From positions 1 through 48,871 of the forward strand of contig CASFGK010000007.1 in the NCBI GenBank assembly GCA_949294195.1: DNA of 48,871 bases. The letters run 5' to 3'. Shown here piece by piece: positions 36,499 to 48,738 of this stretch. The notes beneath the pieces were generated by a model. It was not told where the DNA came from. It saw only the letters and a list, made by a program, of their open reading frames with translations, and did not search any database. This DNA is from an uncultured Bacteroidales bacterium. GTDB taxonomy: Bacteria > Bacteroidota > Bacteroidia > Bacteroidales > UBA932. Made by a program: the position numbers and the translations under genes. Each line of letters begins with the position of its first letter. Position 1 is the stretch's first letter.

Positions 36499-38541
36499 TT
36501 ATATGCCTCTTATCTTGTCAAACAGATTGAAAAACGAAGGACATGATTTGGCTACACATTGCGTGTCATCCATCTCCACAGGAGAATCCGCTCCCAGGGA
36601 TGCGACGGCAAGCGCCATTGCCATACGATGGTCATGCCTTGTCCTGTAGCGTCCGCCCTTAAGCAGATTGCCTGTCAGTATTCTCATAGCCAGAGTCTGG
36701 CCGTTTATTTCAAGCGTATCCCCTTCGACTGAAGCCTTGACTCCCATCTGAGTCAGCATTTCAAGTATGGCCTGTCCCCTGTCGCTTTCCTTGTGAGAAA
36801 GTCTTCTTACGCCGCTTATCCTGCTGGTACCCTGACAGAAAGCCGCCAGAACAGATATAATAGGGAAAAGATCCGGACACTGTGATGCGTCCGTTGTGAA
36901 GCTGCGCAGCGGAGAACGCTGTACCGTTATATCTCCGTCATTGCCGTCATACTGGGAAAGGCTTGCACCTGCATCCATCAGTATGTCCATGATACTCAGA
37001 TCAGCCTGTATGGAGCCGGTATCCAGACCGGAAAGCATCACCCTGCCGAAAACCGCGCCGGCTACAAGGAAATTGGCAGCCGTGCTCCAGTCTCCTTCCA
37101 GGTCGAAATCAGCCGGGCTGTAGACCTGTCCGCCCTTTACCTTGAAAAGTATGTCACTGCAGAAATCCCAGCTTCCTTCTGACAGCATGAAGTCGTCTCC
37201 TCCAAGCAACTCGTCCGATATCCTGATTCCGAATTTCTTCAGGATATCCACAGTGATGAGCATGTAAGGAATGCTTACAGGTTCATGTACCGTAAAAGAC
37301 GAATTTCTTCCGGCCAGAGGAAGAGCCATCAGCAGCCCTGATATAAGTTGGGAGCCATTCGCGCCGGAAAAATCCGTTTTGCACGGGGTCAGACGCCCTT
37401 CAACTCTGAGCGGCACCCTGCACTCGCCATCCGGACCCGAAACATCTACGCCGAACTTATACATTATTCCGTCGACACCGGACAGAATACGCCCGGAAAG
37501 TGTCTTTTCTCCGGTCAGTGTCACGGGCCGTGATGCAAGTACGCTGACCAGAGGCAGCATAAGCCTTGTAAGCAGACCGGACTCTCCGACATGCAAAGTC
37601 CCGGAAGCATCGAGCAGGTCCTTCATTCTATCGGTCCCTGCCCCTTTGATGACAAGGGTATCCCCCTCCAGAGAAACTTCTGCACCGAGGCTTCGCGCAA
37701 CAGCTACGGCCGCCGCATTGTCCCCACAGTCGGAATAGTGTCTCAGATATGATATGCCGTCACTCAAAGCAGCCGCAATTACAGCCCGCTGGGCGAAACT
37801 CTTGGAAGACGGCACTCTTACGGAAGGGCAAGGCTGTTCCGAAGCGCTTGTCCCGGGTTCAGGATATCCCAGGAATTTCCGGTCTCCGTATACCATCCTG
37901 TACATTTCCCTGTCAGGCCATTGTCCAGGAGCTGCAGCATCTTCGAATGCCGCATAAGTAAACGGAGCTCCTTTTCTCAGGCATTCAAGCCTGGAGCTGC
38001 GGCCAGCTTCACCCATACAGAAAGCTATCAGTCTGGAAGGCTCGAAAATGTCATAAAGGGACATTACACGGTCGGCATCATCTTCCGAAACTGCCGTAGT
38101 GACTATTTTCGCTATCTCCCCGTCATGATAAAAGCATTTTTCCACTACGGCTTTCAGACTTTCCACAGAACCGGTTCCCCCGAAATCGTGATATGAACGG
38201 ATAAGGACAGTACCGTTCTCCCGTGCAGCCATGGCCACTCTCTTGACCATCTGCTTGGGAGCTTCCAGCTCGAGATCAGCATATCTTGCTCCCGCCACTA
38301 TCGCCTTTATCAGCCTGTCTTCGCAAAGTCTGGATGCGGCCGCTTCCGAAAGCGAACTGTCATTCTCCATAAGGACAGCCATGCGGCAGGTAGCCACCAG
38401 CGGAATGTCCGTCGAAAAGCATTCCTGTATCTGAGAAGCCGACATTTCACAGCTGTCAAGCCTTATTTCAGCCATCTCGCACAAAGGCACGGCATGCATG
38501 ACGTCGCAAGCGGACTTGTCATGTATAGTTGAACAAATCAT
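36499..38541 (-). CDS. Fusion of type I 3-dehydroquinate dehydratase and EPSP synthase
   Basis: A 680-residue two-domain enzyme for steps 3 and 6 of the shikimate pathway. Residues 1 to about 225 are a type I dehydroquinase (AroD): MAEIRLDSCEMS, ADLELE, SYHDFGGTG with catalytic His118, Schiff-base Lys145 in GEIAKIVTTA, and FCMGEAGRSSRL. Residues from about 238 are EPSP synthase (AroA): PSSKSFAQRAVIAAAL, GESGLLTRLMLPL, NGSQLISGLLMALPL, LSHKESDR and the C-terminal HDHRMAMALAVAS. All main catalytic residues of both parts seem intact. There is no frameshift or stop between them, only a short linker. The start is ATG at 38541, 15 bases after aroB. Confidence 0.92.
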   Translation of the reverse strand: MICSTIHDKSACDVMHAVPLCEMAEIRLDSCEMSASQIQECFSTDIPLVATCRMAVLMENDSSLSEAAASRLCEDRLIKAIVAGARYADLELEAPKQMVKRVAMAARENGTVLIRSYHDFGGTGSVESLKAVVEKCFYHDGEIAKIVTTAVSEDDADRVMSLYDIFEPSRLIAFCMGEAGRSSRLECLRKGAPFTYAAFEDAAAPGQWPDREMYRMVYGDRKFLGYPEPGTSASEQPCPSVRVPSSKSFAQRAVIAAALSDGISYLRHYSDCGDNAAAVAVARSLGAEVSLEGDTLVIKGAGTDRMKDLLDASGTLHVGESGLLTRLMLPLVSVLASRPVTLTGEKTLSGRILSGVDGIMYKFGVDVSGPDGECRVPLRVEGRLTPCKTDFSGANGSQLISGLLMALPLAGRNSSFTVHEPVSIPYMLITVDILKKFGIRISDELLGGDDFMLSEGSWDFCSDILFKVKGGQVYSPADFDLEGDWSTAANFLVAGAVFGRVMLSGLDTGSIQADLSIMDILMDAGASLSQYDGNDGDITVQRSPLRSFTTDASQCPDLFPIISVLAAFCQGTSRISGVRRLSHKESDRGQAILEMLTQMGVKASVEGDTLEINGQTLAMRILTGNLLKGGRYRTRHDHRMAMALAVASLGADSPVEMDDTQCVAKSCPSFFNLFDKIRGI

Positions 38542-38556
38542 TTTATGTTACACAAG

Positions 38557-39621
38557 TTATTTCATCAAATCCAAAGCCCGGCCGACCGGCATAGGCACGA
38601 TCCTGACATCTCCTATTCCGGCAGGCAGCACGAAATATATCCTTCCGTCCTCGGCTTTCTTGTCCTTGAGCATTGCCACGCCAAGTCTGTCCAGAGGGAA
38701 TGGCAGCAGCGTGGGCAGCCCGCACTTTTCAAGGTCCCGGGCAATCTGTCCGGCAAGTCCCGGACTGCCGATTCCCGCCGCTTCTGACAGACGTGCGGCA
38801 CATACCATTCCGATGGAAACAGCCTGTCCATGTGAAATGCGGTGGCTGCACCACTCTATGGCATGGGCAAATGTATGGCCGAGGTTCAGCTTGCGTCTTT
38901 CTCCTGTCTCGAACTGATCCCCGGACACAATCTCCGCCTTCACAGATACTGAAGAGCATACCAGTTCCTCCAGACTAGGCAAGGCCCCGGACATGAACAG
39001 GTCCCTGTCCCGTGCGGCATGAAGTCCGGCGAACAGGTCTATGGTCTTGCTGTAGTTTCCGTCATCCTTGATTACAAAGGTCTTGACCATTTCGGCTGCG
39101 CCTTCAAGAAGATGCCCGTATGGCAAAGTCTTCAATACTTCCGGACAAATATACGTAAACTCCGGCTGCCTTATTACACCAAGCATGTTTTTGTATCCCA
39201 GAAAATTCACGCCTGTCTTACCGCCGACCGATGCATCCACCTGCGCCAGTAGCGACGTAGGGACATAGGCCGTTTTTATGCCTCGTTTATATATAGCCGC
39301 AGCAAACCCGGCCATATCCGTAAGGATTCCGCCGCCGACTGCAAGAAGCAGGGCATTCCTGTCAGCACCGTTCTCCAAAAGCCATGTGCATATACGCGTA
39401 ACTGTACTGATATCCTTGTCTTCTTCCGAAACGTCAAGTCCCAGTTCCGCTGTCAGGCCGACCGCCTGCCCGATAGTAACGGCATGCGGATATACATTCC
39501 TGTCATACACCAAATAAACAGGCCCGGTCCTGTCCAGGAAGGACGGGAGAGCATCCAGAGACGGCCTGAAAATTACATGGCCGGTATATGTCCCGGTCCC
39601 GGAAATCAGTATGTCTTCCAT
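38557..39621 (-). CDS. aroB: 3-dehydroquinate synthase
   Basis: Second enzyme of the shikimate pathway, NAD- and metal-dependent cyclisation of DAHP. The 354-residue form starts at ATG 39621 (MEDILISGTG). It shows AVGGGILTDMAGFAAAIYKR with the NAD-binding glycines, YVPTSLLAQVDASVGGKTGV and LNLGHTFAHAIEW, whose His residues bind the metal. An ATG at 39648 would lie within the -7 box of the promoter, so it was not chosen. First gene of the operon; the spacer upstream holds the first copy of the repeated ~92-bp element. Confidence 0.96.
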   Translation of the reverse strand: MEDILISGTGTYTGHVIFRPSLDALPSFLDRTGPVYLVYDRNVYPHAVTIGQAVGLTAELGLDVSEEDKDISTVTRICTWLLENGADRNALLLAVGGGILTDMAGFAAAIYKRGIKTAYVPTSLLAQVDASVGGKTGVNFLGYKNMLGVIRQPEFTYICPEVLKTLPYGHLLEGAAEMVKTFVIKDDGNYSKTIDLFAGLHAARDRDLFMSGALPSLEELVCSSVSVKAEIVSGDQFETGERRKLNLGHTFAHAIEWCSHRISHGQAVSIGMVCAARLSEAAGIGSPGLAGQIARDLEKCGLPTLLPFPLDRLGVAMLKDKKAEDGRIYFVLPAGIGDVRIVPMPVGRALDLMK

Positions 39622-39643: not shown

Positions 39644-39735
39644 TGCAAATATACGCAGCAGCCGAGAAAAAAGGAATTAACTTGTTCAATTTCCTTTTCC
39701 GAGACGCAACAGTATTTCTGCCGAAGGCAAATATA
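39644..39735 (-). repeat. Repeated intergenic element, copy A (before aroB)
   Basis: A 92-bp segment that aligns with 48646-48738 over its full length; by hand count about 71 of 93 columns agree with one gap. Left to right it has TGCAAATATA, CCGAG, an inverted repeat (AAAAGGAA 39669-39676 with TTCCTTTT 39691-39698) around TTAACTTGTTCAA, a second CCGAG (39699-39703) and CAAATATA (39728-39735). The end boxes read TATATTTG on the minus strand, the promoter -7 pattern, directed toward aroB. Confidence 0.75.
39646..39653 (-). promoter_or_regulatory. -7 box of the shikimate operon
   Basis: TATATTTG on the minus strand, 24 bases before the aroB ATG. A second TATATTTG stands 82 bases upstream (39728-39735). 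Neither has TTTG at -33; the proximal one has TTCC there. Confidence 0.55.
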
Positions 39736-46389: not shown

Positions 46390-47049
46390 TTAAGCAGACT
46401 TGCTGTACAGTCTGTACCAACTGTATAGAGAAGCTACCCCATTTATCAGATACAGCCCCGAAACGATCGGCATGAACACATGGCCGACAGATATATGCAG
46501 TGCCATCTGCGTCACATTCACAAGCAGCCATGCAATCCAGCAGTCCCATTTCTTGAGAGCCGACAGGAACTGCGCCACAAGTATAAGCACAGTCACACAT
46601 GCATCCAGATACGGGATAGGATCAGAAGGGAATGCTCCCGGGAACCAGTTGTTCCCGAGCCGGCTGAGCAACCACCCCCATACACCGGCAAGTATGAATA
46701 CCGATGCTATTGCAGCAATTCTCTGAGGCCAGCCAAGCATGGTTACTTTCAGCGCGTTATGGTCGGCAGAACTCTCTTCTTCTTTTTTCGGATGAGTCCA
46801 GCGATAATGCCCCAATATATTAATTCCCAATGATATGGGCTGAAGAATCAGACTTGCGTACAGATTCTTGTTCCAGAACATGAGGAACAGGGCGAATGTA
46901 TACAGATATCCGACCCAGAAGTTGTACTTGCTGTTCCTTCCTGCCAGAAACACACAAGTAAGACCCAATACAGACGTTATCAGGTCTATCAGCAGGACCG
47001 GAGTGTCACTCCCAATCGTAAATAGTGTATAGTTTATTATTTCTTTCAT
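46390..47049 (-). CDS. pnuC: PnuC-family vitamin transporter
   Basis: Inner-membrane facilitator of nicotinamide riboside or a related vitamin (thiamine in the PnuT subgroup). The 219 residues from the ATG at 47049 form about seven hydrophobic segments, with the family patterns YNFWVGYLYTFALF, NILGHYRWTHP, and DCWIAWLLVNVTQMALHIS. It lies between sufB and sufC on the same strand with gaps of 64 and 56 bases, which is not the normal suf layout. No TPP riboswitch or kinase gene is seen beside it, so the substrate is left open. Confidence 0.88.
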   Translation of the reverse strand: MKEIINYTLFTIGSDTPVLLIDLITSVLGLTCVFLAGRNSKYNFWVGYLYTFALFLMFWNKNLYASLILQPISLGINILGHYRWTHPKKEEESSADHNALKVTMLGWPQRIAAIASVFILAGVWGWLLSRLGNNWFPGAFPSDPIPYLDACVTVLILVAQFLSALKKWDCWIAWLLVNVTQMALHISVGHVFMPIVSGLYLINGVASLYSWYRLYSKSA

Positions 47050-47113
47050 CATACCGGCTAACATTTGGACAGATTTTCCTGCTCCGCTGCAGCTCTGCCC
47101 TGAATGACATATG

Positions 47114-48559
47114 CTATCCCACAGAGCCTTCCAGCGAAACCTGCAGCAGTTTCTGCGCTTCTACTGCAAATTCCATTGGGAGCTTGGACAGTACCTCGCG
47201 GGCATACCCGTTGACTATCAGGCCTACAGCCTCTTCCGGTCCGATTCCTCTCTGGTTGCAGTAGAAAAGCTGGTCTTCGCTTATCTTGGATGTAGTCGCT
47301 TCATGTTCAACAACCGCCGTCCTGTTGGCATTTTCTATGACCGGAAACGTATGCGCTCCGCATTTGTCTCCGATCAGCAGACTGTCGCACTGGGAAAAAT
47401 TCCTGGAATTGTCCGCTCCAGGCAGCATTTTTACAAGGCCTCGGTAACTGTTCTGGCTGCGGCCTGCAGAAATTCCCTTGCTCACAATACGGCTGCGGGT
47501 ATTTTTCCCGATGTGTATCATCTTGGTCCCGGTATCGGCCTGCTGTAAATTGTTGGTTACTGCAACAGAGTAGAACTCTGACGATGAATTGTCCCCTTTC
47601 AGTATGGTACTCGGATATTTCCATGTTATCGCAGATCCGGTCTCTACCTGAGTCCAGGAAAGATGGCTTCCGGAACCTTTGCATATTCCCCTTTTTGTCA
47701 CGAAGTTGAAAATTCCTCCTCGTCCCTGCGCATCACCTGGATACCAGTTCTGGACAGTGGAATACTTGACCTCCGCATCCTTTTCCACGATTATCTCCAC
47801 GACGGCCGCATGAAGCTGGTTCTCGTCTCTCATCGGTGCCGTACATCCCTCCATATAGCTGACGTAGGAGCCTTCGTCCGCCACGATAAGCGTCCGTTCA
47901 AACTGGCCGGTTCCACGGGCATTGATTCTGAAATAGCTGGACAACTCCATCGGGCAACGGACCCCTTTCGGGATGTAGCAGAAAGAGCCGTCACTGAACA
48001 CTGCGGAATTGAGTGCCGCATAGAAATTGTCTCCGACAGGGACGACCGTAGAGAGGTACTTCCGCACCAGATCCGGATGCTCCCTGACCGCCTCGGAAAA
48101 CGAGCAGAATATTATTCCTTTTTCCGCCAGTGACTGTCGGAAAGTGGTTTTGACCGACACCGAATCAAACACGGCATCTACAGCCACTCCGGCAAGCGCC
48201 GCCCTCTCATGGAGAGGAATGCCGAGCTTCTCAAAAGTCTCAGCAAGCTCCGGATCTATCTCCTTTGGCCTGTCACTGTCCTTTTTAGGTGCAGCGTAAT
48301 AGATAATATCCTGAAAATCAATCTCTGGAATATCAAGATGCGCCCACCGCGGCATCTTCATCCCCTGCCATTTTCTGAAAGCCTCCAGCCGGAAATCCAG
48401 AAGCCACTGCGGCTCTTCCTTCTTGGCTGAAATCAGCCTTATGATATCTTCATTCAGACCTTTAGGTATGAACTCCTGCTCGACATCCGTCACAAATCCA
48501 TGTTCATACTCTTTCTGAGTGATGTCTTCAAGTATATTCTTTTCTATATTTTCATCCAT
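47114..48559 (-). CDS. sufB: Fe-S cluster scaffold protein SufB
   Basis: Main scaffold subunit of the Suf system. The 481 residues match the usual length and contain [49 protein letters not shown]-like [34 protein letters not shown] and the C-terminal FYCNQRGI. First gene of the Suf operon; upstream lie a short hairpin and the second copy of the repeated ~92-bp element with a TATATTTG box. Confidence 0.97.
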
Positions 48560-48645: not shown

Positions 48646-48738
48646 TGCAAATATAGCCAGAAACCGAGAGTAATGAAAATGAACTTGTTCAATTTTCATT
48701 ACCGAGGTGCTACAATATATGTGACGAAGTCAAATATA
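48646..48738 (-). repeat. Repeated intergenic element, copy B (before sufB)
   Basis: 93 bp that align with copy A (39644-39735). The order is the same: TGCAAATATA, CCGAG, an inverted repeat (GTAATGAAAA 48670-48679 with TTTTCATTAC 48693-48702) around TGAACTTGTTCAA, CCGAG (48702-48706), and CAAATATA (48731-48738). The stem bases differ from copy A, yet still pair. The palindrome GAAC-TT-GTTC in the middle is complete here. Confidence 0.75.
48648..48655 (-). promoter_or_regulatory. -7 box of the suf operon
   Basis: TATATTTG on the minus strand, 88 bases before the sufB ATG; a second TATATTTG stands 83 bases upstream (48731-48738). The leader would contain a 5-bp hairpin (48601-48615) and the palindrome GGCATACATGCC (48616-48627). 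Confidence 0.5.

Follow-up and report, generated by a model that had tools for sequence, protein, structure and literature searches.

What is the sequence of about 92 bp that occurs twice between the genes of this contig, and what accounts for its position there? The window (the whole stretch analyzed, 48,871 nucleotides from an uncultured Bacteroidales bacterium) carries both copies that the initial annotation had described, at 39644-39735 and 48646-48738, and their end-to-end likeness was recovered by a DNA search with copy 1, which matched copy 2 over its whole length at 77% identity (E = 1e-13). Both lie upstream of minus-strand genes, which Pfam places as aroB and sufB. As detailed below, the element is a hairpin repeat of 80-95 bases, found in gut Bacteroidales and sited in gene promoters directly upstream of the -7 box.

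The genome of origin (2.16 Mb in 31 contigs, 88.6% complete) holds further copies. Copy 1 gave 15 DNA matches there at E <= 1, itself included, the weakest of them probably due to chance and one, elsewhere in the genome, a third and stronger match at E = 2.5e-21. The pattern CCGAG-N-ACTTGTTCA-N-CCGAG is found exactly twice in the genome and never when read backwards. A covariance-model search, proposed in the initial annotation, was carried out with a model (R1) made from 15 copies from three genomes and a hand-written structure; it returned 15 copies at E <= 0.01 among the best 21 candidates scored, the two known copies being the only ones within the window. Partial copies are present in this genome as well. 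The model also finds copies elsewhere in the genus and the order, and the suggestion of a discrete repeated element is confirmed. The remark that no Bacteroidota element of this form had been described also agrees with our searches: Rfam gave nothing at curated score and one chance match (SNORD74, 15.2 of 41 bits), and no paper on such an element was found in open-access literature searches. Of the proposed "new repeated element or RNA family," the first half stands; we rejected an ordinary RNA family on the Rfam result together with the mobile behavior described below, and the evidence favors mobile DNA. A plasmid origin was considered and set aside, as 7 kb of the window had no match in a near-match search of a plasmid collection.

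Read on the strand that has the gene at the left, a unit consists of CAAATATA, 7-8 bases usually ending in AAG, CCGAG, a variable palindrome, and a second CCGAG, followed by about 10 bases, a segment that we call the guide, usually a small hairpin, and CAAATATA again. Units are mostly 75-95 bp long, and a head-to-tail arrangement is common. A unit begins and ends with CAAATATA or a variant, which read on the other strand gives the -7 box of Bacteroidota promoters, so that the outermost 8 bases at either side of both window copies are direct repeats of such a box. The consensus of this box is given as TAnnTTTG, of which TATATTTG, the reverse complement of the end repeat, is one form (PMC7366714). 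The coordinates of the parts are collected in Table 1.

Table 1. Parts of the two window copies of the element, with the genes that lie behind them.
Feature	Position	Strand	Basis
Copy 1, gene-proximal end; CAAATATA on the plus strand, i.e., TATATTTG, the -7 box of aroB (target site)	39646..39653	-	Box in relatives
Copy 1, big hairpin; CCGAG 39662-39666 opposite CCGAG 39699-39703, tandem G-A mismatch	39661..39705	+	Covarying stem, 15 aligned copies
Copy 1, guide segment GTATTTC; target pairing of 4 bases only (GTAT/ATAC)	39712..39718	+	Sequence; covariation in relatives
Copy 1, small hairpin GCC-GAA-GGC	39720..39728	+	Outermost pair Watson-Crick in 52/55 readable copies
Copy 1, gene-distal direct repeat CAAATATA, second -7 box	39728..39735	-	Sequence
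aroB (3-dehydroquinate synthase), preceded by copy 1; 24 nt from start codon to element	38560..39621	-	Pfam DHQ_synthase
Copy 2, gene-proximal end, the -7 box of sufB	48648..48655	-	Box in 27/29 relatives
Copy 2, big hairpin; CCGAG 48664-48668 and 48702-48706	48663..48708	+	Covarying stem in aligned copies
Copy 2, guide segment AATATATG; target pairing of 5 contiguous bases (TATAT/ATATA)	48714..48721	+	Sequence
Copy 2, small hairpin GAC-GAA-GTC	48723..48731	+	Sequence; 55-copy count
Copy 2, gene-distal direct repeat CAAATATA	48731..48738	-	Sequence
sufB, preceded by copy 2; 88 nt from start codon to element	47117..48559	-	Pfam SUFBD_core

The facing CCGAG motifs of the big hairpin pair as C-G, G-A, A-G, G-C, giving a tandem G-A mismatch of a kind that is stable in DNA, and the outer pair of this hairpin is A-T in copy 2, compared to G-C in copy 1. 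Across 15 aligned copies, 91.2% of the stem cells are paired, compared to 28-41% in slid versions, and double changes are found in 29 cells versus 9.6 in shuffles (0 of 500 shuffles as high) and at 8 stem pairs versus 5.0 (10 of 500 as high); one of the five measures, the number of further pair types, is not above chance (15 versus 13.9; 179 of 500). The outer pair of the small hairpin occurs as four pair types, with a loop that is often GAA or GCA, and the hairpin is absent from a few distant copies, e.g., those of G536 and G407. Of 108 units folded by calculation with DNA parameters, 90 are more stable on the strand bearing CCGAG and 17 on the other strand; with RNA parameters, the counts are 77 and 29. 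Subterminal hairpins, one big and one small, are in this way present at both ends on one strand. Two copies (L336:1619-1772 and L359:1329-1492) have apical loops with about 70-90 extra bases and further nested hairpins, as if cargo were tolerated.

The gene-nearest box of both window copies also precedes the same gene in relatives that have no element there. The aroB start was readable in 10 of 19 relatives, and in 9 of these 10 the adjoining 200 nt contain exactly one CAAANNTA box, eight times as CAAATATA and once as CAAAGATA; G092 (L403) has no recognizable box there. For sufB, where all 29 starts were readable, CAAATATA, CAAAGATA, or another CAAANNTA box lies within 200 nt in 27, exactly one in 25 of the cases. 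When 2000 stretches of 200 nt were drawn at random from the window, 113 had such a box. At these 19 aroB and 29 sufB loci, R1 found no copy at the site; its sole hit (L321) lies about 1.3 kb away.

The decisive case of insertion is a divergent intergenic region that we see in three states, each in a different species. The region of G007 (L107) is free of the element and contains CAAAGATA and TATCTTTG, presumably the -7 boxes of the left and the right gene. At the left gene's box, G138 (L385) has an array in which the model makes five matches. In a Bacteroidales metagenome-assembled genome (L194), the left box is intact, and the box of the right gene has a single unit that points the opposite way. 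Comparison of flanks suggests that L360 and L387 are another such opposite-orientation pair.

The initial annotation had both copies in one orientation to the downstream gene, which holds for most copies and is not universal: in 64 of 75 arrays (from the genome of origin, G124, G138, G163, and G182), the left gene points away from the array, and the right genes are on the plus strand in 39, on the minus strand in 30, and absent in 6, with directions called by a simple open reading frame rule. The annotated genes behind the copies are unrelated and include those for a glycosyltransferase, a capsule protein, cytidine deaminase, RsfS, an FKBP, a serpin, a DUF5606 protein, a cNMP-binding protein, and PCMD and DUF1573 proteins, along with aroB and sufB. 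We attribute the fixed orientation to the target, an asymmetric -7 box, rather than to shared regulation. We also considered a target duplication of 11 bases, i.e., the box and the next three bases, and rejected it because the right flanks mostly lack the repeat, L332 being an exception. In L370, L374, L378, L387, and others, the units of an array share the bases after the box though their hairpins differ; inner array junctions often read CAAATAT+CGCAG, and first junctions read CAAATATA+CGCAG.

The element is spread widely and unevenly. Within the genus, R1 found copies at E <= 0.01 in at least 51 of 200 genomes (24 with five or more and 27 with one to four), with the best 21 candidates per genome scored; across Bacteroidales, with the best 10 scored, copies at E <= 1e-4 occur in at least 26 of 393 genomes and 12 of 206 genera, so that both sets of counts are lower bounds. 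A pattern scan of named genomes gave at least 119 loci, of which 80 were scored with R1; the 80 yielded 33 matches in 27 loci, some of them in Candidatus Cryptobacteroides, Muribaculum, Odoribacter, Proteiniphilum, Mediterranea, and a Rikenellaceae genome, and all of the records concerned are Bacteroidales by title except L179 ("uncultured bacterium"). The isolates Proteiniphilum acetatigenes DSM 18083 and Muribaculum sp. An289 are carriers. In the array and unit analysis, 7 of 120 model matches that lay on the opposite strand over another unit were omitted, leaving 113 units; 29 of the 75 arrays consist of 2-4 units. An identical 46-base hairpin stands at at least eight places in G138, and exact repetition of this kind suggests recent dispersal.

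The guide would connect this anatomy with the choice of site. Distant copies combine different boxes with different guides, as in the box/guide pairs CAAAGATAG/CTATCTT, CAAATATAG/CTATATT, CAAAGATAC/GTATCT, CAAAGGTAG/CTACCTT, CAAAAATAA/TTATTTT, GAATTTAC/GTAAAT, and CAAATATAA/TTATATT. Over 29 units (the best match per genome plus four chosen representatives), the longest guide-target complement averages 6.38 bases, compared to 4.66 when the targets are permuted (highest 5.38; 0 of 5000 permutations as high), and it is 6-8 bases long in 24 of them. Because R1 itself holds four guide-target pairs, this set of distant copies is not independent of the search, and position 6 of the target, which lies outside those four pairs, was therefore tested alone. 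It is complementary to the guide in 26 of 36 units and misfits in 10, compared to 14.7 complementary units expected (0 of 20000 permutations); these 36 are the best match per genome plus ten units of named contigs, with Proteiniphilum included three times and G567 twice. The units are related, so none of these figures is an exact probability. Complementarity of the guide to the target or end repeat, and joint change of the two, a degenerate "nn" position of TAnnTTTG included, are shown statistically. The guides of the window copies are weak, pairing over 4 bases in copy 1, less than in most relatives, and over 5 in copy 2.

The right end follows the guide too, with exceptions. Among the units readable for this count (54 of 113), guide GGAT goes with ...ATATC in 17 of 17 and guide GTAT with ...ATATA in 10 of 12 units of G138; outside G138 the rule is weaker, as 8 of 25 units with guide GTAT have ...ATATC. 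For the guides of Mediterranea (L224) and of the G138 subfamily with GGAT, the right end is the better match of the two; in G341 (L428), only the left end matches.

A sister family occurs in the same genomes. Its ends are TAAAATAAA and its guide is GTTTATT or a variant (L345, L353, L356, L358, L362, L365, L372, and L383); TAAAATAAAC is seen with GTTTATT in L358, L362, L365, and others, and the guide fits part of the copies. In three of nine arrays (L358, L365, and L383), a start codon on the same strand follows the right end at a distance of 3-28 bases, so this family may target an A-rich start region and not a -7 box.

Taken together, several observations favor mobile DNA: orthologous promoters have the element in some genomes and lack it in others, insertions of both orientations occur within a single intergenic region, units form head-to-tail arrays, the spread is patchy, and target site and internal segment covary. 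We think it probable that the element is mobile and non-autonomous, with the upstream edge of a -7 box (TAnnTTTG) as its insertion site and such a box at both of its ends afterwards. In the manner of IS200/IS605 elements, it would move as a folded single strand of DNA; the guide would pair both with the target and with the element's own right end, and an open promoter would offer such a guide a single-stranded target. Insertion would leave one box with the gene and place a second at the distal end, following the native upstream sequence. There the native promoter would be rebuilt, with the element becoming leader, so that insertion would do little harm, and arrays could grow because each insertion leaves a fresh box.

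A bolder form of the proposal, which we advance tentatively as a possibility, is that an element with no protein and a guide of 6-8 bases invades transcription bubbles. Its folded strand would pair with the -7 region melted by RNA polymerase and insert at the upstream edge of the box; with a box at both ends, the promoter would survive and the target would be recreated, and the guide would have been reprogrammed to different variants of TAnnTTTG in different lineages and to another motif, TAAAATAAA, in one sister family. If this is right, an order of dominant gut bacteria harbors a widespread element that is aimed at the promoter core, leaves the promoter intact, and shows in its own sequence where it will insert, and guide-directed transposition extends to a minimal unit of only some 85 bases. 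It would then explain many of the palindromes that Bacteroidales promoters contain, the transcription bubble as a target would have a ready test, and guide swaps would be a direct test of retargeting.

Among known systems, the element is best read as an IS200/IS605-like, non-autonomous, single-strand transposable element guided to -7 boxes. As described in PMC6006769, IS200/IS605 elements have single-strand hairpins near both ends, with a guide 5' of the right hairpin and the end sequence 3' of it, and their target flanks the left end while a like sequence closes the right end; the element resembles them on these points and usually has AAG at the foot of its left hairpin. The pairing of guide and cleavage site that covaries with the target is found here as well, with exceptions at the right end. 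The element differs in that its complement is mostly 6-8 Watson-Crick bases, compared to the tetranucleotides described in PMC6006769, and in that it targets the host -7 promoter box, encodes no transposase, and forms arrays, with many carriers in which no Y1 gene was found.

REP/REPIN sequences (with TnpA_REP, or RAYT) are likewise small extragenic palindromes in many copies, and one Y1 gene flanked by copies is seen here (in G037). The element lacks their GT[AG]G at the hairpin foot, which usually reads AAG before CCGAG or GCGAG (among the copies read, only the second unit of L047 has a GTAG, four bases before the foot), and has in addition two hairpins, end repeats containing the target, and promoter-specific insertion. 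The "atypical secondary structures" beside subclass 2.6 of the Bacteroidetes TnpA_Y1 proteins (Quentin et al. 2018, PMC6006769) have in common with the element the phylum, the lack of GT[AG]G, and copies elsewhere in the genome; the description with which we compared it gives no sequence, target, or guide, and the two may be identical. CGTC-tagged REPs are also dispersed palindromes without a dedicated transposase, but they are 20-40 bp long, and the relevant passages of PMC3733652 describe no guide or promoter target. The promoter-bearing miniature elements (MITEs) Correia and BrickBuilt, the latter of Porphyromonas, are small non-autonomous repeats that may supply promoter motifs (PMC10969869); those have terminal inverted repeats, whereas the element has direct end repeats and a guide.

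The weakest step of the proposal is the enzyme: we infer that a Y1 (HUH) transposase supplies the movement in trans, for which one good locus speaks and against which the genus-wide pattern stands. In G037, one Y1 gene lies between two similar element dimers. Its protein falls below the Pfam cut-off (20.6 of 23 bits) but keeps the HUH and Tyr positions, which are invariant in an alignment of 33 proteins of the genus. The genome of origin has two Y1 (IS200-like) genes by Pfam and three matches to the G037 protein, with no element copy in the stretches scanned around them, and its place orthologous to the G037 locus (in L040) has no Y1 gene and one symmetric hybrid copy. This copy (L040:1551-1653; C28, at about 89.98 kb) joins two left ends within a divergent promoter and keeps a -7 box for each gene. 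A survey of 58 stretches flanking Y1 genes, some of them overlapping, found an element copy only at the G037 place and at one in G158, and the other loci compared gave no further association. Matches to the G037 protein at E <= 1e-10 occur in 165 of 200 genomes of the genus, i.e., in 12 of the 24 with five or more copies versus 153 of the 176 others. Ten copy-rich genomes, up to 99% complete, gave no Y1_Tnp match at E <= 0.1 with Pfam, and a profile of the 33 genus proteins found in the same ten only a 24-residue scrap in G151 (E = 0.07); no cognate Y1 gene of the REP/REPIN kind was found there, and the flanked arrangement is seen in G037 only. Promising as the G037 locus is, the genus, Pfam, profile, flank, and locus surveys led us to reject a RAYT (Y1) as the general driver. 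The Y1 (HUH) proteins of the genus are very diverse, with at least 12 matches in some genomes.

The searches for Y1 genes in copy-rich genomes bear on a rival that we regard as rather doubtful, in which the copies are relics of a once-mobile family whose enzyme has been lost from many genomes and which now spreads by local duplication and recombination only. The ten copy-rich genomes in which no Y1 was found, the partial copies in the genome of origin, and the arrays whose units share three bases after the box despite differing hairpins would all fit such a history, but the exact 46-base hairpin repeated in G138 speaks against it. The position at promoters could also mean a cis-regulatory module, i.e., a structured promoter or leader kept for gene control, such as a hairpin or cruciform that hides the -7 box or a 5' leader structure. 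It is consistent with this that CAA (TTG on the gene strand) lies 19-21 nt from the box, as would fit a -33 motif, in 62 of 72 units starting with CAAATATA, and that some loci are filled in several species, e.g., those upstream of the RsfS gene (L038) and of a PCMD-domain gene (L039). Neither window copy has the motif at that spacing, however, and for this reason we also rejected a complete promoter carried by the element; with unrelated genes behind the copies, element-free aroB and sufB promoters in relatives, and opposite orientations within one intergenic region, a regulatory module is unlikely.

The repeats at the ends might instead be the 8-bp target duplication of a palindromic MITE of an ordinary DDE transposon, the guide being only the palindrome's inner arm. 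An inverted internal copy of the target and direct repeats at the two ends are what this would give. The ends are nevertheless direct rather than terminal inverted repeats, some 10-30 bases separate the inverted copy from one end, in most cases with a small hairpin of its own in between, and target and guide change together between genomes, whereas terminal inverted repeats are fixed by the transposase; we consider such an origin improbable. The lowest probability goes to an RNA intermediate, in which RNA of the element would pair with the opened -7 region and be copied into DNA or guide a recombinase, in a bridge-RNA-like or target-primed manner. In favor of this very improbable route, the -7 region is opened by RNA polymerase, guide-target complements reach 6-8 bases in 24 of 29 units, and G-T exceeds A-C among the stem mismatches (25 to 14), though A-G (34) and C-T (29) are commoner than either; the Rfam result speaks against it.

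Other genes of the window were noted in passing. A fusion of type I 3-dehydroquinase and EPSP synthase is encoded at 36502-38541 on the minus strand, and a gene for an NMN transporter (PnuC-like) at 46393-47064, also on the minus strand, lies between sufB and a sufC-like ABC gene.
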